From Aquificaceae bacterium (lineage in GTDB: Bacteria; Pseudomonadota; Gammaproteobacteria; Thiotrichales; Thiotrichaceae), in the NCBI GenBank assembly GCA_003972955.1, contig QOAQ01000045.1:1-36918 (forward strand): 36,918 bases of DNA, in the 5' to 3' direction. Positions 1,797 through 34,821 of the stretch are shown piece by piece. Numbering within the stretch: the first letter of the stretch is position 1; the number at the start of each line of letters is the position of its first letter. The notes under the pieces were generated by a model. The model did not search any database, was not told where the DNA came from, and worked only from the letters and a program-made list of their open reading frames with translations. Both the position numbers and the translations under genes were made by a program.

Positions 1797-2432
1797 TTAT
1801 TTTTCGTTATCCTGATCTTTCTTTGACTGTTGCAGAATATAGTGATTAATACGTGCTTCAAGGCGATCAACTCCCATACGTAACTCATCAACTTGATCAA
1901 GGTAGTGATTGATTTCAGCTTCTGCGGGGGTGAGTTTGACCTCTTCACTAATGTATTCAGAGGTATTTAGTTTTATTGCTTCCAAGCTTTCTTGCAACCA
2001 TTCAAAACCCGTTGATGTGACTTGTCCTGCCTGATGTGCCACAACATCGCCAACGAGCTTAGAAAGTAGCTCCTCCCAGTCAATATCGACTTCACTCAAA
2101 ATACGACTAAACTCTGCTCCAAGGTGAGTGTCACCTGCAATACTGGCATCACTATCTAATAAGGTTTTTCCTGAATTTTTTGCGACGCCTAAACGTATCA
2201 AAGCCATCGGTGAACCTGTAATAGTTGTATCAGGCTCTCCCGCATAATTACCCATTACCGCGATATTTTGTTTATCAGGTAAAAAATAAAGATCTAACTC
2301 TAAGCCACTGATATGCAAACAAATGACTTTGCCCTGCATATCGGCAAATTTATCTAAAGTCTCCCCATCTAATGCTAACCATGCATTGAGAGAGGTTTCG
2401 ATACTGGCGAGAATGGCAACAGGTAACTGCAT
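1797..2432 (-). CDS. ubiJ: UbiJ, SCP2-domain ubiquinone biosynthesis accessory factor
   Basis: Lies between ubiE and ubiB; SCP2-like sequence. The ORF opens at 2474, but the Met at 2432 (MQLPVAILASIE) is the likelier start. Confidence 0.85.
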   Translation of the reverse strand: MQLPVAILASIETSLNAWLALDGETLDKFADMQGKVICLHISGLELDLYFLPDKQNIAVMGNYAGEPDTTITGSPMALIRLGVAKNSGKTLLDSDASIAGDTHLGAEFSRILSEVDIDWEELLSKLVGDVVAHQAGQVTSTGFEWLQESLEAIKLNTSEYISEEVKLTPAEAEINHYLDQVDELRMGVDRLEARINHYILQQSKKDQDNEK

Positions 2433-2436
2433 GATA

Positions 2437-3198
2437 TTAAAGTTTATAGCCGATATGCAGGGCAACAATACCACCTGTCATATTGTGATACGTAGTGCGC
2501 TCAAAACCTGCCTCATCCATCATTCCTTTTAAAGTCTCCTGATCGGGGTGCATACGAATAGATTCTGCTAAATAGCGGTAACTATCCGCATCATTCGCCA
2601 CTATTTTTCCAATCAACGGCAATAATTTAAACGAGTATTGGTCGTAAATTGTGTTAAGACCTGGCACAACAGGCTTAGAAAATTCCAATACCATTAATTT
2701 CCCACCAGGCTTTAATGTCCGCAGAATAGAACGTAGCGCCTTGTCTTTATCCGTTACATTACGTAAACCAAACGCAATGGTGACGATATTAAAGTGATTA
2801 TCAGGAAAGGGCAGGCATTCAGCATTCGCCTGTACGTATTCAACATTACCTGCAATGCCCATATCGATTAAGCGTGAGCGACCATTTTCTAGCATCGAGC
2901 CATTAATATCGGATAAAACAACATTTCCTTCTGAGCCAACAATACGTGAGAATTTAGCCGCTAAATCCCCCGTACCACCCGCCAAATCAAGAATCGTATC
3001 TCCACGTTTAGCACCAGACTTATCAATGGTATAACGCTTCCATAAACGATGCACACCTGCTGACATCAAGTCATTCATTACATCGTACTTATCGGCTACC
3101 GAATGGAAGACCCCTGCCACTTTGCTGGCTTTCTCTTCGACAGGGACTTGAGTGTATCCAAAATGAGTAGACTGTTTTTCTGAGGTTTTATTCGACAT
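2437..3198 (-). CDS. ubiE: UbiE, demethylmenaquinone/ubiquinone C-methyltransferase
   Basis: 253 aa; [39 protein letters not shown]. Confidence 0.95.
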
Positions 3199-3420
3199 AA
3201 GATATTCCTGATGAATCTTTTAGTGTGCTTATTGTAACAATCAATGAGGCTCTTATACATGATTTATTTTTGCGTTTAAATTCCATGCAGACTACACAAA
3301 AATTGCATATTCGGGTTAAGTTTGGCAATAACTGCTATGCTATTTGTATGTTTTAAGGAGAGATTTTTAATGTGTGCTCCTTATCGACTTATAAATAAAA
3401 TAATTTGGAAAAATTCTCTC

Positions 3421-4152
3421 ATGAAACACTTATTTAAAATCACCTTAGCCATCGCTTTATACCTGCCTGTTAGTAGCTATGCTGATAATCAAAAAATTAA
3501 AATTCTACCATTAGGTGACTCCATCACTTGTGCAAGTAAATATAAGGAAAGCTATCGTTATCCTTTATGGAAGCATCTAGTCGATGCGGGTAAGGGAAAG
3601 CAAATTGAATTTATTGGTAGCCAAATCAAAAAAGGGAATAATGGAAGGGTGTGGAAGCCATACAAAGGTTTGGCTTTTCCTGAAGCTAATGAAGGGCATT
3701 CTGGTTGGAGAGCTGATCAGGTTTTAGAGGGGGTATCCAATGCTGAAAAGGGTTTAGATACATGGATTGCTGGCTACCGTCCTGATATAGCGTTGATCCA
3801 CTTAGGGACGAATGATGTGTATCAGTCACAAAGCCCTGAATCTACTCGTGATGAAATTGAGCAGATTATTTTAAAATTACGGAATAAAAATCCTAAGATA
3901 AAAGTGCTACTTGCTAAAATTATACCGATGAGAATGGATAATGGTGTGCCACGTTTAAATCGTTTGCTTACTCAGCTTGTGATTAAATTAAATACAACAC
4001 AGTCACCTGTGGTTAGCGTCGATATGTATTCAGGTTTTAGTATTAATACTGATATGCAAAAAGATAAAATCCACCCTAATGCAAAGGGTGAAAAGAAAAT
4101 GGCAAAGCGTTGGTTTGATGCTTTGATCAGTCATCACTTTCTTTCCAAGTAG
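3421..4152 (+). CDS. Secreted SGNH/GDSL-type hydrolase
   Basis: Signal peptide MKHLFKITLAIALYLPVSSYA, then LPLGDSITC, HLGTNDV, DKIHPNAKG. The listed ORF start at 3322 is probably upstream of the true start. Confidence 0.85.
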   Translation: MKHLFKITLAIALYLPVSSYADNQKIKILPLGDSITCASKYKESYRYPLWKHLVDAGKGKQIEFIGSQIKKGNNGRVWKPYKGLAFPEANEGHSGWRADQVLEGVSNAEKGLDTWIAGYRPDIALIHLGTNDVYQSQSPESTRDEIEQIILKLRNKNPKIKVLLAKIIPMRMDNGVPRLNRLLTQLVIKLNTTQSPVVSVDMYSGFSINTDMQKDKIHPNAKGEKKMAKRWFDALISHHFLSK

Positions 4153-4196
4153 TCGTTCACTTATCTTCTGAAATCTGCAAGATGTGTAATAAAAAA

Positions 4197-4224
4197 GCGG
4201 TATGAAATTTCTATTTCATACCGC
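4197..4224 (-). terminator. Rho-independent terminator, probably for hppA
   Basis: Perfect 12-bp stem gcggtatgaaat/atttcataccgc with loop ttct. aaaaaa upstream on + gives a U-run on the - transcript. Confidence 0.8.
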
Positions 4225-4278
4225 CGTACTACTTTCATAAAATTTATAGAAAGTCTGTTTTCGTAATCGTTTAGATTC

Positions 4279-4315
4279 CCCCTGAAATTTGTCAGTTCAA
4301 GGCAAATTTCAGGGG
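4279..4315. repeat. Perfect 13-bp inverted repeat downstream of the hppA stop codon
   Basis: cccctgaaatttg - 11 nt - caaatttcagggg; no adjacent U-run. Confidence 0.8.
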
Positions 4316-4339
4316 AGTAGGTGAACAGTTAGCAATTTT

Positions 4340-6376
4340 CTACATCAAAGGAATCATCAATAAAGCAACAATATTGATAATTTTGATTAAAGGATTAATC
4401 GCAGGACCTGCTGTATCTTTGTAGGGGTCACCCACAGTATCACCTGTGATAGCAGCTTTATGTGCTTCAGAGCCTTTACCACCGTAGTTATCATCTTCGA
4501 TATATTTCTTTGCGTTATCCCATGCACCACCACCTGTGGTCATAGAAATTGCGAGGAATAAACCTGTTACGATTGTTCCTATTAGTAAGCCACCAAGTGC
4601 TTGTGGACCAAGCCATAGACCTACAATTAATGGAACCAATACGGGTAATAAAGAAGGTAAGATCATTTCTTTTATGGCTGATTTTGTGAGTAAGTCAACC
4701 GTACGAGAATAATCTGGCTTCTCTGTGTTTTCCATAATGCCAGGCTTTTCTTTAAACTGACGACGTACTTCTATCACAACTGCACCTGCTGCTCTACCAA
4801 CCGCTTCCATTGCCATTGCGCCAAATAAGAAGGGGATTAAGCCACCAATAAATAAACCAATAATGACCATGTGATTGGAGAGATCAAAGGTAATTGCACC
4901 ATTACCATGTGCTGATAATCCATGAGTAAAGTCGGCAAATAAAACCAGTGATGCTAATGCCGCAGAACCGATGGCATAACCTTTGGTAACTGCTTTTGTT
5001 GTATTACCAACAGCATCTAAGGCATCGGTTGTTTTACGTACATCTTCAGGAAGGTTTGCCATTTCTGCGATACCACCCGCGTTGTCTGTCACAGGACCAA
5101 ACGCATCCATTGCAACAATAATCCCTGTCATTGATAGCATGGAGGTTGCTGCGATAGCGATACCAAACAGTCCCGCGTAGTGATGTGCTGCGAAAATACC
5201 TAAGCAGATAACAATTACAGGTGCTGCGGTAGACTTCATTGAAATAGCAAGACCTGCGATAACATTTGTTCCGTGACCTGTTGTAGAAGCTTTTGCTAAG
5301 TGTTTAACAGGCTTAAATGATGTTGAGGTGTAGTAATCGGTTACAACAACAAGTAGGGCGGTTACTGCTAAGCCGATTAATGCACTGAAATAAATAGACA
5401 TAGCACTATAAGCAACACCTTCTAAACTTGTTATCGATGGTAATAACCATGTAGTGACAGGGTAGAAAAAGACTGCCGATAAAACACCTGAAACAATCAA
5501 ACCTTTATACAGTCCTTTCATTACCTTGCCATCACTGCCGACCGATACAAAGAAAGTACCGATAATGGATGCAATAATAGAAACAGCACCTAATACAAGA
5601 GGATAGATAACGGCATTAGAACCAACACCAAAGGTGAGTGCCGCTAACATTAAGGTCGCTATAATAGTTACTGCGTAGGTTTCAAATAAGTCTGCCGCCA
5701 TACCTGCACAGTCACCCACATTATCTCCTACATTGTCTGCAATAACCGCAGGATTACGTGGATCATCTTCAGGAATTCCAGCTTCAATTTTACCCACAAG
5801 GTCAGCACCAACATCAGCACCTTTTGTAAAAATACCACCACCTAGTCGAGCAAAAATAGAAATTAATGATCCGCCAAAGGCTAGACCAATTAAAGGAGCA
5901 AGATCAGGGGCAGCACCATCAGCACGCATTGCAACGAGCAATAAAAGAAAGCCTGTGACACCGACTAAACCAAGTCCAACAACAAGTAATCCTGTTACTG
6001 CACCACCACGAAAAGCAACTTGCATGGCAGGGTTTAAACCATCTTTAGCCGCTTCAGTCGTACGAATATTGGCACGTACAGCAACATACATCCCGATATA
6101 ACCTGCTAAAGAGGATAAGACAGCGCCAATAATAAAGCCAGAGGCTGTCAATGCGCCTAGCGCATACCAAAGTGCAACAAAGAGAATAACGCCAACGATA
6201 CTAATCGCAGAATACTGACGTTTAAAATAAGCAGTGGAACCTTCTTGAATCGCTTTGGCGATCTCCCTCATCTCTGGGTTTCCCTCGGGTTTTGAGAGAA
6301 CCCAACGTATCGAATATACGCCGTACAGCAAGGACGCAAACGCGCATCCTAGTGCTATCATTAATCCTAGTGACAT
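4340..6376 (-). CDS. hppA: Membrane-bound proton-translocating pyrophosphatase, predicted K+-independent
   Basis: 678 aa; [55 protein letters not shown] (Lys at the K+-independence position); [22 protein letters not shown]. Confidence 0.96.
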
Positions 6377-6749: not shown

Positions 6750-8618
6750 ATGGGGAAAACAAAGTTGTTAAAATTTTATTTATTTAGCTCAGTTCTGATT
6801 GTAGCGCTTAGTTGTCTCTTTGCATGTGGTCGTAGTCAGTCTTTTGATGTTGAGTTTAGTAGTAATGTCGAGACGATTGAGTCAGGCAATAACATTCAAC
6901 TGTCATGGTCATCACAAAATGCTTCACGTTGCTATAGCAATGATTTTGATAGCAAAAATCAGGTTTCTGGTACGATCACATTAAAAATTGTTACCACTAC
7001 CACCTATACCATCACGTGTAGTAACAGCCAAAATAGCACCATCAGCAAACAACTCACCGTATCGGTTAGTTCAGCAAAAATTGAATCAAGTAATAGCGCT
7101 GGAGCGACGTATTATGTTGCTAATAATGCACTTGCTAATAACAGCAATACAGGAGCAAGCGATGCACCTTGGCGTAATATTCAATTTGCGATTGATCAAC
7201 TCGTGGCAGGTGATACCTTAATTATTAAAGCGGGTATCTATGAAGAAACAGTGTTGCTGTCGGGTGCTAAACACTCAGGCATCGCGAATGCTCCTATTCG
7301 TATTCAAGCACAAGATGGAGCAGTTATTGATGGGAGTCATTTAACACCTAAAGGATCTCAGGGCTTAATAACACTGCAAGATGTCAAGTATGTAACGATT
7401 GATAATATAGAGCTAAGAAATTTTAGGACTGCTAGTGGAGATGAAATAAGTGATACACCCATAGGGATATATATTAAAGGAGCTTCTGCTCATCTTTATA
7501 TTGCAAATAATTACATCCATCACATAGAAAACCGTTCAAACTGTGGTCAATCATCAGGCTGTGGCACAGGGGCAAATGGTATTGCCGTTTATGGAGATAC
7601 ACGTACTGCGATCAGCGATATAGTGCTGTCTGGAAATGAAATTTCACACTGTATTTTATCATCCAGTGAGGCTTTTACGTTGAATGGCAATATTGATGGA
7701 TTCAAAGTGTTAAATAATTATGTACATGATAATAACAATATAGGTATCGATATTATTGGCTATGAGTCTGACACCTGTAGCACTTGCGCTCCAGAGGAAA
7801 ATCGTGCCAGAAATGGTCTTGTCCAAGGTAATAAGATTATAAATAACTCAACAAATTTAGCATTAGGTCGTTTTAGCAATAACCCATGGTATGAAGGGGA
7901 TGACGGTAGTGCAGGGGGCTTTTATGTCGATGGTGGTAGAAATATCGTGTTTGATCGTAATATATCCTCTAAAAATGATATTGGTTTTGAATTTGCAAGC
8001 GAGCATTCTGCGAAGTTTAGCGAAGATATTTTAATGAGAAATAATTTACTCTTCGCAAATCGAGAAGCAGGTTTATCTATTGGTGGTTACGCTCAAGACA
8101 GCCGTGCAGAAGGTGGTGGTGGCACAAAAAATATTGCTATTTTTAATAATACCTTTTATAAAAATAAAGGTTGGGGGACTGAAATTAACTTTTCTTACCG
8201 TATAAGTGCCGTACAACTGGCAAATAATATTATTGTTGGCGAAGGTGATATAGCCGATAACTTCTCAAGCGAAATAAATGCTCAGAATGACCATATAACA
8301 TGGCTCAATAACCTATGGTGGGCTACCAATAATAGTGACACATCAACGCTGCAAGGATCTTTTATTGCCGAAGACCCTCTGTTTATCGCGCCCACACAAG
8401 GAAATCTTCATTTACAAACTAACTCTGTCGTGATTGATCGTGCCATCATTCAAGCACCACTTAGCACATGGAAGAATGCTTTTTGGCAGCGCTTATTATT
8501 GACGGATGGAATTCTTTCCGTACATGGAAAGCAAGATATTTATGGCAATAGCCGTTTTAATAATCGTTTAGATATAGGTGCGGAAGAAGTGATTATTGTT
8601 GAGAGTAATTCAAGCTAA
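6750..8618 (+). CDS. Lipoprotein with N-terminal Ig-like region and right-handed parallel beta-helix
   Basis: Lipobox-like LFAC; Ig-like NIQLSWSSQNASRC...TITC; repeated N-rich strands (IANNYIHHIEN, VLNNYVHDNNNIGIDIIG, NNTFYKNKGWG). Confidence 0.8.
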   Translation: MGKTKLLKFYLFSSVLIVALSCLFACGRSQSFDVEFSSNVETIESGNNIQLSWSSQNASRCYSNDFDSKNQVSGTITLKIVTTTTYTITCSNSQNSTISKQLTVSVSSAKIESSNSAGATYYVANNALANNSNTGASDAPWRNIQFAIDQLVAGDTLIIKAGIYEETVLLSGAKHSGIANAPIRIQAQDGAVIDGSHLTPKGSQGLITLQDVKYVTIDNIELRNFRTASGDEISDTPIGIYIKGASAHLYIANNYIHHIENRSNCGQSSGCGTGANGIAVYGDTRTAISDIVLSGNEISHCILSSSEAFTLNGNIDGFKVLNNYVHDNNNIGIDIIGYESDTCSTCAPEENRARNGLVQGNKIINNSTNLALGRFSNNPWYEGDDGSAGGFYVDGGRNIVFDRNISSKNDIGFEFASEHSAKFSEDILMRNNLLFANREAGLSIGGYAQDSRAEGGGGTKNIAIFNNTFYKNKGWGTEINFSYRISAVQLANNIIVGEGDIADNFSSEINAQNDHITWLNNLWWATNNSDTSTLQGSFIAEDPLFIAPTQGNLHLQTNSVVIDRAIIQAPLSTWKNAFWQRLLLTDGILSVHGKQDIYGNSRFNNRLDIGAEEVIIVESNSS

Positions 8619-11765: not shown

Positions 11766-12437
11766 ATGGCAATCACCGATTGGGCAATTGAAGATAGACC
11801 ACGTGAAAAATTATTACAACGTGGAGCAATCGCCTTGTCTGATGCTGAGCTTTTGGCGATATTTTTACGTACAGGTATAAAAGGTAAAAGTGCGGTCGAT
11901 TTAGCCAAAGATTTATTGATAGAATCAGGCAGTTTAAGTGCTTTACTGTCTGCCAGTGAGGAAAAGTTTTGTTTACATAAGGGCTTAGGGCAAGCTAAAT
12001 ATGTGCAGATGAAAGCCGTTGTTGAAATGTCACGGCGTTATCTTGATGAAAAAATGAAACGGGGTGATGTACTAAAAGATGCCTCTGATGTTGAAAACTA
12101 TTTGAAGCTAAAGCTACGTCACTCTCCCTATGAAATATTTTCTTGTGTTTTTTTAGACAATAAACATCGTGTTATAGAGTATGAAGAACTGTTTCGTGGC
12201 ACGATAGATAGTGCTAGTGTGCATCCGAGAGAAGTAGTAAGGCGTGTGATACATCATAATGCCGCTGCGGTTATCTTATCTCATAATCATCCATCAGGTG
12301 TTGCTGAGCCGAGTCAAGCAGATCATCGAATAACAGAAAGATTAAAACAAGCATTATCATTTATTGATGTACGTGTTTTAGATCACTTTATTATTGGTGA
12401 TGAGGTCGTTTCATTTGCTCGTCGTGGCTTGATATGA
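11766..12437 (+). CDS. radC: RadC family JAB-domain protein
   Basis: 223 aa; [31 protein letters not shown]-like [24 protein letters not shown]. Confidence 0.95.
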
Positions 12438-12922
12438 GTGTATTAAAATATAGGGGGAAGGGAAGTATGGGGTTTATCCAAATTGTGGTGGGTGTGTTAT
12501 TAGTATTGTTTAGTACAGGACTATATTCTGCACCGTTTGATCAGTCTATTGCTATCAATGTGAAAACTAAAATAGGACATGCTTTTGCTCTACAACCACA
12601 GCGCAAATCTCGTTTGAATTGTAAAGGTTTAAAGCCTATCAAATGGAAAATACACATGAATATGCGTAAAAAAAGGATGTGGCTAAAAATTGAAAATAAA
12701 AAAAGCTATAGCCTTCCCATTACTTACTCACAGTGGAACAGAAAAAGCCATAAGCGTATGATTATTTTAGCAGGTAAAGATCGAAAACGTGTAAAAGCAA
12801 CCTTAAATCGTAGCCAGCTTTGTCGTCGTAAGTTCTCACGCTCTCGTTATACTTATTCTATTCATGCCATTGTGTCCCATTCTCAATTTCTTTCAGGCTG
12901 TTGTGCGGATATCACACGTTAA
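12434..12922 (+). CDS. Small, very basic Cys-containing predicted secreted protein, overlaps radC by ATGA
   Basis: Hydrophobic [21 protein letters not shown], then K/R-rich mature region with C at LNCKG, QLCRR, SGCCAD. No family recognised. Confidence 0.6.
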
Positions 12923-12959: not shown

Positions 12960-14060
12960 TTAAGCAATCGAATCTAAGCTAACTTGATCGGGATTAACAG
13001 CTGAGCATTGCATTAGGCGATTAAATAATTCATCTTGCTCTAAAATAGTGTGCTCGCCATTTGCATGTTGTACATATGCTGCCCATGGTACAAATTGGGT
13101 TTGAGCAAAAGAATGTTCATTATCTGGTGAGTAATCAATATTGAGTCCTGAGATATAAATGAGATTACGCCCATGATAACTTTCTTCACGCACGATAGAA
13201 CGATAACCACGATCAAATTCAACCTGAATATTAATTTCGGCGGCACTTAACATTGGTTCTGATGATGTCACTATCCAAGGAATAAAAGGATAGATATTTT
13301 TTTCTACTTGATGAGTATTATCAATATTACGTTTGTATTCAAATAAATTAGGTTTAAGATATTTTCCGATGGCTCGTGGTTTTTTAGGCCATAAAAAATT
13401 TCTCTCTCTCAAATAGGCTTTAAAATTTTTTGATACTCTGTAGCGTTTGCTGGTGCTAAGTACTTGTACAGACTTGGTCATTTCTTTAGTTAACTCTTCA
13501 AATTCAATAATACTACGCAGATTTATAAAGAGACCTTCATCATATTTTTGGCTTAAGAGCTGATTGTCAATAGTAACAAAACTACCTTCTTCCGTACGAT
13601 GCAAGAGTATATTTTTACTAGCAAATTTATACTCATTAAGATACCACTCAAGTGTGTGGTCTATCATGCCGCAATTAGGCGAAAATTCTTGATTACTGGT
13701 TTGTAAACGTCGATATATGCCAAATGTTTCAGTGCTTGTGTCATAACCCACGTGGCTTGCCTGAATAATGGCAAGGTCCTGACCATGATGTGCATGAGGA
13801 CTATGACGGCTTGTTGCCATAACACCGCCAACTAAGCCGTGGTCAAAAGGAAAGGCGCCAAAATGTTTACTGATAAGAATAATCGGTAAACCTTGGCTTT
13901 CATCAGAACAAAAGGCACGTGAAGGAACTATTTTTCCTGCTGTCATGCCTTCTTCTAAACAAAAATTATAAAATCTGGCAATAAAACTATGATAATCAAT
14001 TATTTTTTCTTCTATCTCAAAATTACCTAGGATAGATCGTAAGCGTAAATTTGAGATCAT
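12960..14060 (-). CDS. LCIB/LCIC-like (theta-type) carbonic-anhydrase-fold protein, candidate
   Basis: 366 aa; FCSDES (C51,D53), HFGAFPFDHG, IIQASHVGYD (H103), FGIYRR, NCGMI (C130) match the order of LCIB-family zinc-site motifs. Start overlaps the upstream stop (ATGA). Confidence 0.6.
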   Translation of the reverse strand: MISNLRLRSILGNFEIEEKIIDYHSFIARFYNFCLEEGMTAGKIVPSRAFCSDESQGLPIILISKHFGAFPFDHGLVGGVMATSRHSPHAHHGQDLAIIQASHVGYDTSTETFGIYRRLQTSNQEFSPNCGMIDHTLEWYLNEYKFASKNILLHRTEEGSFVTIDNQLLSQKYDEGLFINLRSIIEFEELTKEMTKSVQVLSTSKRYRVSKNFKAYLRERNFLWPKKPRAIGKYLKPNLFEYKRNIDNTHQVEKNIYPFIPWIVTSSEPMLSAAEINIQVEFDRGYRSIVREESYHGRNLIYISGLNIDYSPDNEHSFAQTQFVPWAAYVQHANGEHTILEQDELFNRLMQCSAVNPDQVSLDSIA

Positions 14061-15349
14061 GCTAAATAATACTCGTTAATTGCCTCGCCGATTTTTTCTA
14101 AGGTGTTTGTGAAAATGACATCATCTTCTTGCAATAAGGTCATACGAAAACCATTTATAGTGCTACCAAATCCTGTAAGTGGAACAACACAAACGCCTTT
14201 TGATGCCATTAATTCATAAGAAAACTGAAAATCTGCAGCAACTTTTTCCTTTTTTAATAAATCATCTAAAAATAAGCGTACGGCTTTATTTGTGGCATTG
14301 AGTTGTGCGCGAGGCAAGTTAAGTAATTCGACCACTAAATAGAAAACTCCCTTTGGTTTATTAACGCGTATTTGTGGTATATCTTTAAAAAATAGAAAAG
14401 CTTCATCTGCACGTTTTTCATACTTACTTAAGCGGGATGCTAAATAGACTTTATATTCAGGGTGTGCATAAAGGTGGGGTAAAATAACTTGTGGCAAAGT
14501 CGTCGAGCAGACTTCTAGCATTTTGGCGAGTAAGATCATTTTCATATAATCACGGAAATTATCATTTTTTTCCGCATTGTAAATTTCAACCCACCCACAG
14601 CGAGAGCCAGGCCAAGGAATATCTTTACTAATACCTTTGAGACTTAACCCTGGTACATCGCCAATAATCTCATGTAAAAGCGTCATCTCAACACCTTTAA
14701 ATGTCATGTGATGATAAATCTCATCAAAGATTAAGAAGCAGTCATAACGTCTTGCAATATCAACTATTTTCTCTAAGGTTTCACGTTCGTAAACGCTACC
14801 CGTCGGGTTGTTTGGATTAATCACTAAAATAGCAACGACATGATCGTTATATTTGACTTTATTTTCAATCTCTTCTAAATCAGGTTCCCAGTTATTTTCA
14901 GGGTCTAAGCTATAAGAAATAAAGTTACAACCTGCATGCATCGCCTCTGCTGTTGCATGTGAAGGATAAGTAGGGGAGGGAACTAACACACGAACTTCAC
15001 GCGGTAAGTTATTGATAATTTTATTGATAGCTTCGCCAAGACCATTGAAAAATAAAATATCATCAATCATGCAAATCTTGTCACTAGAAAAATTATCTAA
15101 AACAAACTGGCGCGCATCAATAAACCCGCGTGAGTCCGTGTAAGCAAATGTTTCATCCTTAGCAATATGCTTTTGAACAATCTCTTTCATCCATTTGGGT
15201 ACAGATTCCCCCGCTGAAATAGGGTCACCAATATTTTCCCAAACCATCGAAAACCCACCTAATTGTTCTAATTGCTTACCAATTAAAACAACCTCGCGAA
15301 TGGGATAACTCAATAAACTGCTGTCTGCACGTAGTAGGTTTTGCCTCAC
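14057..15349 (-). CDS. PLP-dependent aminotransferase, class I/II fold
   Basis: 430 aa; NPNNPTGSVYERETLEKIV, IFDEIYHHMTF, SLKGISKDIPWPGSRCGWVE (PLP lysine region). Confidence 0.9.
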   Translation of the reverse strand: MRQNLLRADSSLLSYPIREVVLIGKQLEQLGGFSMVWENIGDPISAGESVPKWMKEIVQKHIAKDETFAYTDSRGFIDARQFVLDNFSSDKICMIDDILFFNGLGEAINKIINNLPREVRVLVPSPTYPSHATAEAMHAGCNFISYSLDPENNWEPDLEEIENKVKYNDHVVAILVINPNNPTGSVYERETLEKIVDIARRYDCFLIFDEIYHHMTFKGVEMTLLHEIIGDVPGLSLKGISKDIPWPGSRCGWVEIYNAEKNDNFRDYMKMILLAKMLEVCSTTLPQVILPHLYAHPEYKVYLASRLSKYEKRADEAFLFFKDIPQIRVNKPKGVFYLVVELLNLPRAQLNATNKAVRLFLDDLLKKEKVAADFQFSYELMASKGVCVVPLTGFGSTINGFRMTLLQEDDVIFTNTLEKIGEAINEYYLA

Positions 15350-16488: not shown

Positions 16489-16965
16489 ATGGAAATAGAA
16501 GATGAAAAACTAACCTTCTACTACAATGGAAATCAAGATCTTGAATCTTTTCAAATACTTCAAACTGCACTTGATATAAGGGGATACTATCTTGTTGAGT
16601 TTTATAATGAGTTTTTAATTGATATCTATATGCTGCTTGATGACCCTGAATCAAAACATATTGCTATTGATTGGGATAACACTATTAGCGCAGATCAAGA
16701 TTTTTTCAAAAATCTCATTAAACAATTCCAATCTGCGGGATATAAACCCTTCGTCTGCACTTTACGTGCTCCTGATAGGGAAAACATTGAAGAAATTCGC
16801 TCAATATTAGAAAAGACTAATATTGCTATCTATCTTACTGATGGCAACCCTAAACGTGAGTATATGAAAGAGCTAGGTGTTAACGTTCATTTATGGATTG
16901 ATGACTTCTATCCTGGCGTTTGTAGGGAAACAAGCTCACTACTAACGAGGAATAGCATCGAATGA
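16489..16965 (+). CDS. HAD-like hydrolase, phage-like
   Basis: 158 aa; IAIDWDNTIS (DxDxT), FVCTLRA, YLTDGNPKREYM (Lys motif), LWIDDFYP (DD motif). Confidence 0.7.
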   Translation: MEIEDEKLTFYYNGNQDLESFQILQTALDIRGYYLVEFYNEFLIDIYMLLDDPESKHIAIDWDNTISADQDFFKNLIKQFQSAGYKPFVCTLRAPDRENIEEIRSILEKTNIAIYLTDGNPKREYMKELGVNVHLWIDDFYPGVCRETSSLLTRNSIE

Positions 16966-17537
16966 ATTCAGAAACGATAATGGAAAACTTTCTTGCAGGT
17001 AAGTACGAACAACTGCACTGTGATAAATGTGAAATGACATTTCTTACCAATGTCTTTGACTATGATGAAACACATGTTTTATTAGAAAAACGCTCACTTG
17101 GACTCGAATATTACTGTGGTGCTATTCATACTAAAAACTTGACCAAAGTACCTAATATACAGCGTATTGGTATTATTGATGAAGAAGACAACCCTGTAGA
17201 AGCTCCTAGCAATGAGGAAATCTATTCTGGTGATGAAACAGACTACCGTTTTATTTATATTATGGAAAAACTTGAGCATATGAATGATGAAAACAGTGCT
17301 TATTTTGATAAACATATTAAAGACTTAGATTGGAAAAATAAAGAAAGCAGAGAAGCTTCATTGCAAGAAGTCAGCGACAAGTACAACCCACAACTTGCAA
17401 CTGACATCGCTAAACTTTATGAATTCTATACACAACATAAAGAGGTTATTGCATGGGATTTACACGGTGATAACTTAATGCAACGTATTGAGAGCAATGA
17501 AATTGTTATTTTAGACCCTTATACAAGGAGAGCTTGA
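16962..17537 (+). CDS. Small protein kinase/APH-fold-like protein, phage-like
   Basis: 191 aa; IYIMEKLEHM hinge-like, WDLHGDNLMQR catalytic-loop-like, VILDPY metal-loop-like; ATGA overlap with the preceding gene. Confidence 0.6.
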   Translation: MNSETIMENFLAGKYEQLHCDKCEMTFLTNVFDYDETHVLLEKRSLGLEYYCGAIHTKNLTKVPNIQRIGIIDEEDNPVEAPSNEEIYSGDETDYRFIYIMEKLEHMNDENSAYFDKHIKDLDWKNKESREASLQEVSDKYNPQLATDIAKLYEFYTQHKEVIAWDLHGDNLMQRIESNEIVILDPYTRRA

Positions 17538-30265: not shown

Positions 30266-31360
30266 ATGAGAAAGTTATTAATTTTATTAATTGGTCTTTT
30301 GCTATTTGCTTTATTGTCTTATTTTTGTATTTATAAATATTCGACTCAAAAAATAGAGTTAGATATTAAAAGTAAAGTCGAAGACTCGCTTATACGAAAT
30401 GATCTTTCATCCGTTAAGGTGAAGACAGATGGTTTAGATATAACGTTACAAGGCGTTGTTGCCTCGCAAGCGTTGAAAGCAAAAGCTGAGAGGGTCGCAT
30501 CAGTAGATGGTTATCATAAAATCAATAACTTAATCGAAGTTGTAAAAAAACAAGCACCTCCTAAGCCTGTTTATATAGAGCCTTACTCAATGGCAATAGG
30601 GCTTAAAGACGACAAATCCCTCATTCTCAGTGGTTCAGTTCCCAATAGTCAAATTAAAAATAAACTTCTGAGTTTGGCAAATAGTGAATACGGTAAACCT
30701 CATGTAACAGATGATTTAATGATTAAAGCGAAAGCTCCAAGGGATTGGGAAACTGCTTTAGTGAGTGTGCTTGATATATTTCCATTAATGAAAAATGCCC
30801 AATTAGAAGTATCAGATGAAGACCTCAAGTTATCGGGCATGGCAATAAATGAAGCGGCGCGTGAGAAAATCACTCTATCTTTAGAACAAGCCCTGCCTAA
30901 AAACTATGTCGGAAATTTAAATATAAGCGTAGCTCCTAAAGTTGATGCTGATAATGAGCAAGTGTCTAGCGCTGCTCTTCAAGAAGCCGCTAAAAATTGT
31001 CAGGAAACATTTGCAAACTTGCTTTCTAAAAACAAAATTCACTTTAAAACAGGACGAGCCGAAATAGCAAAAAGTAGCTCTACATTGTTAGATGATTTGA
31101 GTAAGGCAGCCAACGGATGTCCTAAACAAATTATTGTTATTGCGGGTCATACTGACTCTCAAGGTTCAAAAAAGGCGAATAAAGCATTAAGTCAAAAACG
31201 TGCAGAAGCAGTTGTTAATTATTTACAGAAAAAAGGGATTAATAAAAGTAATTTAAAAGCAATAGGGTTTGGAGAAGAAAAACCTATTGCTAGCAATAAA
31301 ACATCTAAAGGGCGGGCACTTAACCGTAGAATTGAATTTACTGTAGAAGGAGTAAAATAA
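30266..31360 (+). CDS. BON-domain/OmpA-C-terminal-domain envelope protein
   Basis: N-terminal TM; BON-like repeats (VKVKTDGLDITLQGVVASQALKAKAERVASVDGYHKINNLIEV); OmpA IHFKTGRAEIAKSS...IAGHTDSQGSKKANKALSQKRAEAVVNYL...GEEKPIASNKTSKGRALNRRIEF. Confidence 0.9.
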   Translation: MRKLLILLIGLLLFALLSYFCIYKYSTQKIELDIKSKVEDSLIRNDLSSVKVKTDGLDITLQGVVASQALKAKAERVASVDGYHKINNLIEVVKKQAPPKPVYIEPYSMAIGLKDDKSLILSGSVPNSQIKNKLLSLANSEYGKPHVTDDLMIKAKAPRDWETALVSVLDIFPLMKNAQLEVSDEDLKLSGMAINEAAREKITLSLEQALPKNYVGNLNISVAPKVDADNEQVSSAALQEAAKNCQETFANLLSKNKIHFKTGRAEIAKSSSTLLDDLSKAANGCPKQIIVIAGHTDSQGSKKANKALSQKRAEAVVNYLQKKGINKSNLKAIGFGEEKPIASNKTSKGRALNRRIEFTVEGVK

Positions 31361-34300
31361 TGAATGCTTATCTTGTTTCACAATTATGGTTATGTTTATC
31401 ACTCGCACTATTGCTTGGTGGTCTTATGGGCTGGTTTTTACGAGGTGGTTGTAAGGCTAAATTAGCAAAAATACGTAGTGATTGGGAGCAACGTTATACA
31501 CTTCTGGAAGATGAAAAAAATAGTTTTGCAGCACAATTAGAAGATGGAAAAAATCTGAATGGTGAGCGAAAAAATCTATTAAGTCGTTTGGCGGCAATGG
31601 AGAATGGAGCAAATATTGCAAGTAGTGTTTTAAAAGAAAATAAAGATAAATTAGATAAAGCAGAAAGTCGTTTGGCGGAAATTAAACAAGAGCTACAACA
31701 GCGTGATAAAGAAATAATAGAACTAAAGAAGAACTCAGACGAGGCTTCTAAAACACTCAATTTAATGATGGAAAAATCCTCTAGTGATGAAGATAAATCA
31801 GTAGAGCTTCAAAACCTATTAGACAAACAACTATCAGCGTCAAAAGCAAGCAAATTAAAATTTGATAAAGAGTTATTAGAGAAGAGTAAAGAAATTGAAA
31901 AGCTAGCAAAAGATTTAAAAGTTGCTCAAGAAGAATCGAAGTCAAATTATGATCAAATAGAGACAATGCAGGCATTACTAGATGCACACGAAGAAGGTAG
32001 TAGTGTTTTATCTAAAGAAATGAATAAATTAGAAAAAGCATTATCGGTTAAAGAAGCATTGCATCTTGAAGAAAAGAAAAAATTAACAGAGCTAAGTACT
32101 CAATTTGATCTTAAAGAAAAAGAAATACAAGAAGCTAATCTTGCTTTACAAACCGAATTAACAACATTGAAAGATACAAAAAATTCTTCACGAGAAAAAA
32201 TTAATTTGTTGCTTAAACAATTGTCGTCATCTGAAGACAAAGAAAAACAAGCTAAAGTATTGTTAGATAAGCAAGTTAAAGATTTAGAAAGTTATAAATT
32301 AGCAGCAGAACAAAATAAAAACAAACTAGCAGATGCATTAAAACAAAAAGAATCCGAGATAGAAAAGCTAACAGAAACTTTAAAGATGATTAAAAAAGAA
32401 GCTGAATCGAAGGATAGTCATGCCGAACAACTACAAGAGGAAGTAAAGCAACTACGTAAACAATCTCAGTCAAATGAGGAAAAATTAAAGCAAACTCAGA
32501 GTTTATTAGATGAGCAACTTAAAAGCATAGAAAGCTATAGATTGACAGCAGAAAAAAATAAAGGTCAGTTAACTGAAAAACTGAAAAAGAAGAAAACTGA
32601 ATTATCAGCATTAGCAAAAACAGTAGATGCTATTAAAGAAGAGCTTGTATCAAAGAATGCAGATACAGAGTCATTGCAATCATTATTGGATGAACAAAAA
32701 ATACTGAATAAAGCAAAATCTGAAAAAGAGAACGAGTTAAAGAAAGCCTTATCATTATCGGATAAATTAAATATTGATTATGAGAAGAAGACAGAAGAGT
32801 TTGTTTCTCAATTAGCGCTTAAAGATGAAAAAATAAAAGAAGTTGAACTTGCTTTAAGCAATACAAAGCAAGAGTTGAATACTGTGACACCACAAGTGGA
32901 TGAAATTAAGTCACTAATGCATGAGTATGAAAAGAGCAGTAAGAAAATGATTGGAGAATTATCATCATTAGAGTCTCAATCAGATGCTTATCGCGCAGAG
33001 CTTCTTGATGCTGAGTCTAAGTTAAAGATGGTGCAAGAACAGTTAGAATTTAGAGATAAAGAAAATAAAGAAAAACTTGCTAATTTGAAATTAAAGCTAC
33101 AGGAAAGTGAGGATGAAGCACAGCTAATTAAGAATAACTTATCAAGTAGCGAAGCAAAAATAGCTGAAAGTAATAAGGCGAAAATAGAGTGTGACAAAGA
33201 AGTTGCAGACTTAAAATTAAAGCTACAAAAAAGTAAGGATGAAGCACAGTCCATTAAGGATAATCTATCAAGTAGCGAAGCAAAAATAGCTGAAAGTAAT
33301 AAGGCGAAAATAGAATGCGACAAAGAAATTGCAGACTTAAAATTAAAGCTACAAAAAAGTGAAGATGAAGCACAGTCCATTAAGGATAATCTATCAAGTA
33401 GCGAAGCAAAAATAGCTGAAAGTAATAAGGCGAAAATAGAGTGCGATAAGGAAGTTGAAGCTTTAAAACGAAAGTTACGAAAGAGCGAAGATGAAGCTCA
33501 GTCAATTAAAGAGAATTTATCAAGCAATGATGCAAAGGTCGCTGAAAGTAATAAAGAGAAAATAGAGTACGATAAAGAAGCCAAAAAATTAAAGGGTCGT
33601 TTAGCTTTAAAAGAAGCAGAGCTTGAGGTTTTAAGCGCTGATTTAAAGGCTAATCAAAAGATGCTTAAGGTGAGTGACGTAGAGAACGAAAAAACCACCA
33701 TTGCATTAGTCGAGAATAGCAATAAAAAATCAATAACGTCTAATCCAGAAGAATCTACAAAAAAGAAAGAGAAGATCATAAAGCCAAAGAAGGTCGTTAA
33801 AGGTATTTCAACTGAGAGTAAAAAATCAACGACTAAGAAAGCTTTATTAAAACCGAGTTCAAAGCCTCAGTCTCTTATGACATCCTCGGTAGTTAGTGAC
33901 ACTACTGCTAAGCCAAGCAATGAGTATGAAATAGAAACAATAGAAGGTATTGGAAACGTTTATGGAGAGAAGTTAAGAATCTTTAATATTTCCACAACAA
34001 CAGACTTGTTAAATAAAGCAACATCCCCCGCAGGTGTACATGATATTGCGAATAAATTAAACCAGAAAAGTTGGATTGTTAGATCTTGGGTGAGTATGAG
34101 TGATTTACTTCGAGTTGATGGTATTGATGGGCAATATGCAGAGCTACTAGAATTTTCAGGTATACATTCAGTTCAATCCTTAGCTAAACAAAAAGCTAAG
34201 CCATTAAGTGAAAAGATGTTTGCAGTTAATGAAAAAGAGCATTGTGTAAAAATAGCACCCGATACTGCTACAGTGGCAGAATGGATTATATACGCAACAA

Positions 34301-34821
34301 CATTGAGTCCACGATTAACAGATAAACTTGAGTTTATTCAAAAAGATAAGGTCACTAAAAAATCATCAGAAAAACCTGAAACACTAAAAAATGAAATAAA
34401 AGATAACTTAAGTAATACTCAAAAAAATGATTACGATATAGAGGAAATTGACGGTATTGGTAAAGGCTATGGTAAGCGTTTGCGTGCAATGGGTATTCAT
34501 ACCACTACTAAATTATTGAATAAGTGTACCAATACGGATTATGAAAAAAATATAGCGAAAGCAATGATGCTGAATGAAAAGATTGTAAAATCTTGGTGTC
34601 AAATGGCTGATTTGATAAGAGTTGAAGGAATAGACGGGCAACTTGCCGATCTGCTATTTTTCTCAGGAATAACATCAGTTAAAGAACTTTCGATTAAAGA
34701 TGCTGATAAATTAACAAGTAAGATAGAAAGTGTTAATAAAGCACAACAACGTATGAAAGAAACACCAACACAAGAAATGGTTTCTATGTGGATTACTGCA
34801 GCTCAGTCACTTTGTAAGTAA
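31360..34821 (+). CDS. Giant membrane-anchored coiled-coil protein with two DUF4332-like helix-hairpin-helix domains
   Basis: 1153 aa; N-terminal TM; ~800 aa K/E-rich heptads; two copies of YEIETIEGIGNVYGEKLRIFNISTTTDLLNK / YDIEEIDGIGKGYGKRLRAMGIHTTTKLLNK. Confidence 0.8.
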   Translation: MNAYLVSQLWLCLSLALLLGGLMGWFLRGGCKAKLAKIRSDWEQRYTLLEDEKNSFAAQLEDGKNLNGERKNLLSRLAAMENGANIASSVLKENKDKLDKAESRLAEIKQELQQRDKEIIELKKNSDEASKTLNLMMEKSSSDEDKSVELQNLLDKQLSASKASKLKFDKELLEKSKEIEKLAKDLKVAQEESKSNYDQIETMQALLDAHEEGSSVLSKEMNKLEKALSVKEALHLEEKKKLTELSTQFDLKEKEIQEANLALQTELTTLKDTKNSSREKINLLLKQLSSSEDKEKQAKVLLDKQVKDLESYKLAAEQNKNKLADALKQKESEIEKLTETLKMIKKEAESKDSHAEQLQEEVKQLRKQSQSNEEKLKQTQSLLDEQLKSIESYRLTAEKNKGQLTEKLKKKKTELSALAKTVDAIKEELVSKNADTESLQSLLDEQKILNKAKSEKENELKKALSLSDKLNIDYEKKTEEFVSQLALKDEKIKEVELALSNTKQELNTVTPQVDEIKSLMHEYEKSSKKMIGELSSLESQSDAYRAELLDAESKLKMVQEQLEFRDKENKEKLANLKLKLQESEDEAQLIKNNLSSSEAKIAESNKAKIECDKEVADLKLKLQKSKDEAQSIKDNLSSSEAKIAESNKAKIECDKEIADLKLKLQKSEDEAQSIKDNLSSSEAKIAESNKAKIECDKEVEALKRKLRKSEDEAQSIKENLSSNDAKVAESNKEKIEYDKEAKKLKGRLALKEAELEVLSADLKANQKMLKVSDVENEKTTIALVENSNKKSITSNPEESTKKKEKIIKPKKVVKGISTESKKSTTKKALLKPSSKPQSLMTSSVVSDTTAKPSNEYEIETIEGIGNVYGEKLRIFNISTTTDLLNKATSPAGVHDIANKLNQKSWIVRSWVSMSDLLRVDGIDGQYAELLEFSGIHSVQSLAKQKAKPLSEKMFAVNEKEHCVKIAPDTATVAEWIIYATTLSPRLTDKLEFIQKDKVTKKSSEKPETLKNEIKDNLSNTQKNDYDIEEIDGIGKGYGKRLRAMGIHTTTKLLNKCTNTDYEKNIAKAMMLNEKIVKSWCQMADLIRVEGIDGQLADLLFFSGITSVKELSIKDADKLTSKIESVNKAQQRMKETPTQEMVSMWITAAQSLCK
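33085..33588 (+). repeat. 126-bp tandem repeat (42 aa), four copies plus a diverged fifth start
   Basis: Unit starts at 33085, 33211, 33337, 33463, 33589; consensus LKLKLQKSEDEAQSIKDNLSSSEAKIAESNKAKIECDKEVAD. Confidence 0.95.

Follow-up and report, generated by a model that had tools for sequence, protein, structure and literature searches.

A putative LCIB-like zinc carbonic anhydrase at a Thiotrichaceae locus and the distribution of its family in mostly autotrophic bacterial lineages

Results

The stretch of DNA analysed here (36,918 nucleotides, referred to below as the window) comes from a Thiotrichaceae-like genome; among named genomes, a MAG labelled Leucothrix mucor is its closest relative. 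On the minus strand, positions 14057 to 15349 encode a class I/II PLP-dependent aminotransferase of 430 amino acids with a GTG start, which matches Pfam PF00155 with 133 bits and falls in the NF005334 (PRK06855) family with a score of 543.7 bits, above the NCBIfam cut-off of 443. Downstream on the same strand, at 12960 to 14060, lies the gene with which this report is mainly concerned, an open reading frame for a protein of 366 amino acids that we describe, from Pfam PF18599, an AlphaFold model and Foldseek comparisons, as a putative LCIB-like zinc carbonic anhydrase (CA) of the LCIB_C_CA fold. The two frames share a 4-nucleotide ATGA overlap at 14057-14060. The reading frame, this overlap and all of the motifs quoted in the initial annotation are present, in the order given there.

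Elsewhere in the window, a 162 amino acid frame with a signal-like N-terminus (12434-12922, plus strand) lies directly after radC and is convergent with the LCIB-like gene; it has no convincing Pfam or NCBIfam match. Two overlapping frames of 158 and 191 amino acids (16489-17537, plus strand) likewise returned no convincing family match. A BON-OmpA protein (30266-31360, plus strand) is followed by a protein of 1153 amino acids with a C-terminal DUF4332 (31360-34821, plus strand), one base being common to both frames, and a weak match to UPF0236 is found near the contig end (35472-36758, minus strand).

The 366 amino acid protein carries, in order, FCSDES (containing C51 and D53), GAFPFDHG, SHVGYD (H103), FGIYRR (R117/R118) and NCGMI (C130). 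Conservation was examined in two alignments, one of 21 sequences obtained by a whole-genome protein search and one of 74 sequences obtained by a pattern search, and neither contains any variation at C51, D53, H103, R118 or C130. Because the search patterns overlap C51-E54 and F70-G78, conservation of these two stretches in the larger set is partly selected; H103, R118 and C130 lie outside the patterns. S52 is found in 73 of the 74 family members, giving a CSDE motif as in PtLCIB4, for which an S47R mutant (equivalent to CRDE) was crystallised by the PtLCIB4 authors. As judged from these alignments, the conservation of the motifs is beyond chance. The predicted zinc ligands are C51 of the CSDE motif (codon 13908-13910, minus strand, as are those that follow), H103 of SHVGY (13752-13754) and C130 of NCG (13671-13673), which align respectively to CSDD, GPHIG and CCG in a bacterial LCIB proper (L111, discussed below). 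D53 (13902-13904) and R118 (13707-13709), the latter aligned near HRF of the same protein, are the predicted members of an Asp-Arg dyad. At the level of sequence, both the Cys-His-Cys ligands and the dyad match the LCIB motifs, and the predicted site agrees with the ligands and the Asp-Arg pair that had been proposed for this protein, with the arginine now placed at R118.

Against the Pfam LCIB_C_CA model (PF18599) the protein scores 19.1 bits over residues 23-143, below the cut-off of 25, whereas some relatives exceed it (27.2, 26.7 and 25.9 bits, for example) and 20 of the 21 and 67 of the 74 family members match the model, with a best E value of 1.9e-8. When the window's own genome was scanned with PF18599 nothing was found, indicating that the Pfam model alone misses the LCIB-like family. 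The protein has no NCBIfam match, and neither it nor its family matches the β-CA model PF00484 at E values up to 1. Nor did phmmer match the sequence to any solved structure, while a profile search of the structures returned only unrelated matches with E values of about 0.5 and above; a comparison of folds was thus needed for the link to LCIB. The AlphaFold model, built on the 74 sequences, has a pLDDT of 87.8 and a pTM of 0.87, residues 74-85 beside the predicted site being modelled at a pLDDT below 50. Its top seven Foldseek matches in the PDB are all LCIB-family structures (5b5y, 6kfs, 5k5w, 5b5x), the best being PtLCIB4 5b5y (E 7.7e-6, probability 1.00, TM 0.69 by target). Among the remaining matches listed only one, a further LCIB chain, has a probability above 0.3, and nothing significant was detected outside the LCIB/LCIC family. 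When the family profile was compared with the single L111 sequence the motifs aligned (E 0.008, low probability score), a sequence score that would not convince by itself. Taken as a whole, the sub-threshold Pfam match, backed by the relatives and by the modelled fold, leaves the LCIB-like identity of the protein well supported.

The initial annotation had named the protein LCIB-like (theta-type) and had pointed to the Pfam model and to superposition on LCIB/PtLCIB4. The first half of the name stands: although the window protein itself is below the Pfam cut-off, most of its relatives match the same model, and only LCIB/LCIC structures match its fold convincingly. The second half we have dropped. 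Kikutani 2016 reportedly deals with theta-CA, and Jin 2016 is said to treat LCIB as a β-CA-like group; since parts of the literature separate theta-CA from LCIB, "LCIB-like" is the better name.

A scan of GTDB genomes identified at least 331 genome stretches encoding relatives of the protein, mostly in autotrophic lineages. The best 80 of these are from Gammaproteobacteria (Thiothrix, Cocleimonas, Sedimenticola, Thiodiazotropha, Chromatiales and Methylophaga), Nitrospirota, Scalindua, Desulfobacteraceae and Verrucomicrobia. Some Thiotrichaceae (G002, G023 and G040) have two LCIB-like paralogues of different clades. An origin in phage, plasmids or defence systems was considered and rejected, as viral contigs and plasmids contained no relatives and there was no PADLOC match.

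Genes of inorganic carbon uptake recur beside the family. Within ∼6 kb of the LCIB-like gene, 77 loci yielded 14 cases of PF00361 proton-antiporter/NuoL-M-N-type subunits, 13 of SulP transporters and 5 of DabA, and 19 of the 71 loci placed in our tree had SulP, DabA or NuoL/M-type genes within that distance. One neighbouring SulP scored 610 bits to the bicarbonate transporter BicA versus 285 bits to sulfate permease, neither score reaching its curated cut-off. Other neighbours include CbbR-like regulators, a CbbO-like VWA protein and a BMC-domain protein; at one locus (L106) a RuBisCO large subunit is found near the LCIB-like gene, and at another (L058) the LCIB-like gene is preceded, on its own strand, by a piece of DabA and three more genes, of which at least one is NuoM-like. 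On the tree of 71 rows the label for linkage to DIC genes needs 13 changes, at least 9 of which are forced by well-supported branches, indicating that linkage was gained or retained at many points of the tree and is not one inherited accident. We estimate that linkage by chance at such a level is unlikely for genes of these types. The clade to which the window belongs showed no DIC gene adjoining the LCIB-like gene.

Two features of these neighbourhoods may be recorded separately. At three loci (L058, 1-7122; L072, 3617-10685; L094, 2633-9695) the LCIB-like gene stands beside DabA and a number of individual antiporter-like subunits, of which one scores as NuoM, in arrays that are apparently larger than the described two- or three-gene DAC. 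In Thiothrix-type genomes (L106, L013, L014, L016-L019 and L023) the neighbourhood of the LCIB-like gene repeatedly includes a protein of ∼210 amino acids in which a BMC (microcompartment shell) domain is weakly matched, and at L106 this BMC-type protein (4956-5588) is beside RuBisCO and a LysR regulator.

Co-occurrence was calculated over a fixed sample of 243 gammaproteobacterial genomes, 17 of which, across 14 family codes, have an intact LCIB-like copy. RuBisCO is present in 16 of the 17 carriers versus 103 of 226 non-carriers (p 6e-5; this and the p-values below are uncorrected for shared ancestry and for the number of comparisons, several of which were post hoc). Among RuBisCO-positive genomes CsoSCA, the anhydrase of carboxysomes, is found in 1/16 carriers versus 43/103 non-carriers (p 0.004). 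In the cyanobacterial mechanism a fast cytosolic anhydrase is harmful to carboxysome-using cells, and the near absence of CsoSCA from carriers fits such harm. Considering only RuBisCO-positive genomes that are negative for CsoSCA, 5 of 15 carriers have a β-CA versus 48 of 60 non-carriers (p 9e-4). The same tendency was observed among Thiotrichaceae genomes at least 90% complete, where β-CA is missing from 9/22 carriers versus 2/25 non-carriers (p 0.01). Several carriers do keep a β-CA. Within the window's genus no genome has both the LCIB-like gene and a β-CA: the carriers (G000, G001, G002, G007 and G008) have no β-CA, three non-carriers (G003, G004 and G005) have one, and G006 has neither.

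The host genome of the window encodes a RuBisCO matching NF010002 (872 bits), which we take to be form II, beside a LysR (CbbR-like) regulator and CbbQ/CbbO-like genes. It also encodes DabA and two α-CAs that are probably periplasmic, since their N-termini read as signal peptides. No β-CA was found in this genome, an absence that is weak alone because the genome is 70% complete, and two more complete genomes of the same genus (G002, 98%, and G007, 93%) are also without one. On one host contig (G000:C37, L142) DabA (1865-5233) and a secreted-looking α-CA (7218-7991) are ∼2 kb apart, with an OmpA-like protein between them.

The aminotransferase is encoded in 33 of 64 Thiotrichaceae genomes, that is, in 15 of the 28 with an intact LCIB-like gene versus 18 of the 36 without. 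Intact adjacent pairs number only five, in two genera (G000, G002, G007, G044 and G057); the frames overlap by ATGA in the window and in two of its close relatives, and by 8 nucleotides in two genomes of the other genus. Two further genomes (G024, locus L030 on G024:C42, and G059, on G059:C71) have a broken or fragmentary LCIB-like remnant directly downstream of the aminotransferase, and both carry a β-CA match. In G035, G040 and G048, whose LCIB-like genes fall in the same clade as that of the window, the two genes are on different contigs with other neighbours. Half of this clade has the pair separated or lacks it, and it was not found in any other clade of the tree that was examined. The initial annotation had read the overlap as implying coupled translation and counted a lack of conservation of the pair in relatives as evidence against its reading. 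A functional coupling of the two is not supported: the aminotransferase is distributed independently of the LCIB-like gene, and what recurs beside the wider family is genes of DIC uptake and the Calvin cycle and not aminotransferases. On this distribution we rejected coupling to the aminotransferase as the key, and the enzyme is probably a positional, lineage-specific neighbour and not a pathway partner.

Discussion

We think it probable that the window protein is a cytosolic, zinc-dependent CA of the LCIB fold that supplies CO2 to RuBisCO and replaces β-CA, mostly in autotrophs without carboxysomes, and that the aminotransferase is no partner in this. The predicted fold, the invariant residues, the distribution and the gene linkage are the observations from which we infer zinc binding, catalysis, the direction of flux and a physiological role. 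The protein would interconvert CO2 and HCO3-, with zinc held by C51, H103 and C130 and with D53 and R118 forming a β-CA-type dyad, and it would represent a distinct bacterial family of ∼370 amino acids in which the two LCIB domain halves are both retained and are separated by a longer segment. Among autotrophs, mostly carboxysome-less, it would stand in for the usual cytosolic β-CA, converting the bicarbonate that DAC or SulP-type transporters accumulate to CO2 for RuBisCO, and it may also supply HCO3- to biosynthetic carboxylases; co-expression with the overlapping aminotransferase gene is possible. We regard such a cytosolic enzyme, doing the work of β-CA, as the most economical explanation; RuBisCO needs the CO2/HCO3- equilibrium that it would speed up if bicarbonate is accumulated by such transporters without a carboxysome. 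A more specific proposal, which we put forward tentatively and would not ourselves expect to hold, is that the family is the dedicated cytosolic partner of the membrane DIC machinery (multi-subunit DabA/NuoL/NuoM-type complexes and BicA-type SulP) in mostly carboxysome-less bacteria, a bacterial counterpart of the algal LCIB mechanism and possibly an antiporter-docked vectorial CO2 hydratase.

Of the competing explanations, the one that survives best, though we judge it unlikely, is a protein of the LCIB fold that is regulatory or has no catalytic activity; it would bind zinc, and perhaps CO2 or HCO3-, and serve as a sensor, a scaffold or a barrier to leakage, a role that has been suggested for recombinant Chlamydomonas LCIB and LCIC. 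Those two purified proteins have the fold and the zinc site, yet no activity (PMC5876011), so the site alone is no proof of catalysis, and the poorly modelled loop at residues 74-85 is also in keeping with a silent protein. Against this, the full dyad and all of the ligands are invariant in the family, and its CSDE motif is that of PtLCIB4, PtLCIB3/4 being described as constitutively active (PMC9614477). The anti-correlation with β-CA, too, fits the replacement of an activity.

A β-CA-like hydrolase acting on a different small molecule (COS or CS2, for instance) was considered because many of the hosts are sulfur oxidisers: Thiotrichaceae, the family of the window's host, and many carriers (Thiothrix, Sedimenticola, Thiodiazotropha and Chromatiaceae) belong to sulfur-oxidising lineages. 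A relationship between COS hydrolase and clade D β-CAs has been reported (PMC8209446). We nevertheless hold this activity to be very improbable, since the carriers include Nitrospirota, Scalindua, Methylophaga, Desulfobacteraceae and Verrucomicrobia and the linked genes serve inorganic carbon uptake and the Calvin cycle. Least probable of all is the suggestion, raised in the initial annotation, of a repurposed zinc enzyme sharing one amino-acid pathway with the aminotransferase, which the overlapping frames in two genera favour but which is opposed by the independent occurrence of the two genes, by the splitting or absence of the pair in half of its own clade and in every other clade examined, and by the decay of two neighbouring LCIB-like copies in genomes with a β-CA match.

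The LCIB fold and its β-CA-like chemistry are already known. The bacterial LCIB-like family, by comparison, is widespread but barely annotated, its members scoring near or under the Pfam cut-off. LCIB goes unmentioned in the main text of recent surveys covering bacterial and microbial carbonic anhydrases and the DIC toolkits of autotrophs (PMC13098186, PMC10880623), and we found no description of such a family in the open-licence literature, absence from which is no proof of novelty. Many genomes appear to be without a carbonic anhydrase, and a family found in carboxysome-less autotrophs, often replacing β-CA, would fill part of this gap. If the carbonic anhydrase reading is correct, an algal CO2-concentrating protein family would be extended into bacterial CO2 fixation.

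The closest known systems are the LCIB/LCIC proteins of solved structure (PtLCIB4 5b5y, Chlamydomonas LCIB 5k5w and LCIC 5b5x, and 6kfs), with which the window family has in common the fold and the motifs CSD(E), H-V/I-G, R and C-G, alike in order and identity, as well as a GGIQINT-like C-terminal strand whose counterpart, by eye, is SGLNIDYS. It differs from them in its length (∼366-390 amino acids versus the 223-position Pfam domain of LCIB), in aligning to PF18599 over only the first ∼120-150 positions, and in a longer, less conserved segment of ∼110 residues (∼150-260) between the zinc half and the conserved C-terminal half; identity to the LCIB structures in the structural alignment is ∼10%. 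We take the extra segment as a subfamily trait and therefore file the proteins as an LCIB-related family and not as LCIB itself. Bacteria also have an LCIB proper, L111 (G183:C88), with the same set of zinc-site motifs in unchanged order. At 246 amino acids and 255 bits to PF18599 it is the sole match of that strength in the 243 sampled genomes, versus 17 carriers of the window family; its host is a gammaproteobacterium with RuBisCO and β-CA. DabA (PF10070), of the DIC-accumulating complex, for which a β-CA-like zinc site has been reported (PMC13144422), occurs in many genomes that carry the LCIB-like gene, sometimes at a common locus. However, DabA has ∼1100 amino acids and acts with a membrane subunit, DabB, whereas the window protein is small, has no transmembrane segments in its model and does not match PF10070. 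The β-CAs (PF00484) have a Cys-His-Cys zinc site and an Asp-Arg dyad like those predicted in the window protein but are a different family, one that tends to be missing where the LCIB-like protein is present, and this complementary occurrence suggests that the two do the same job.
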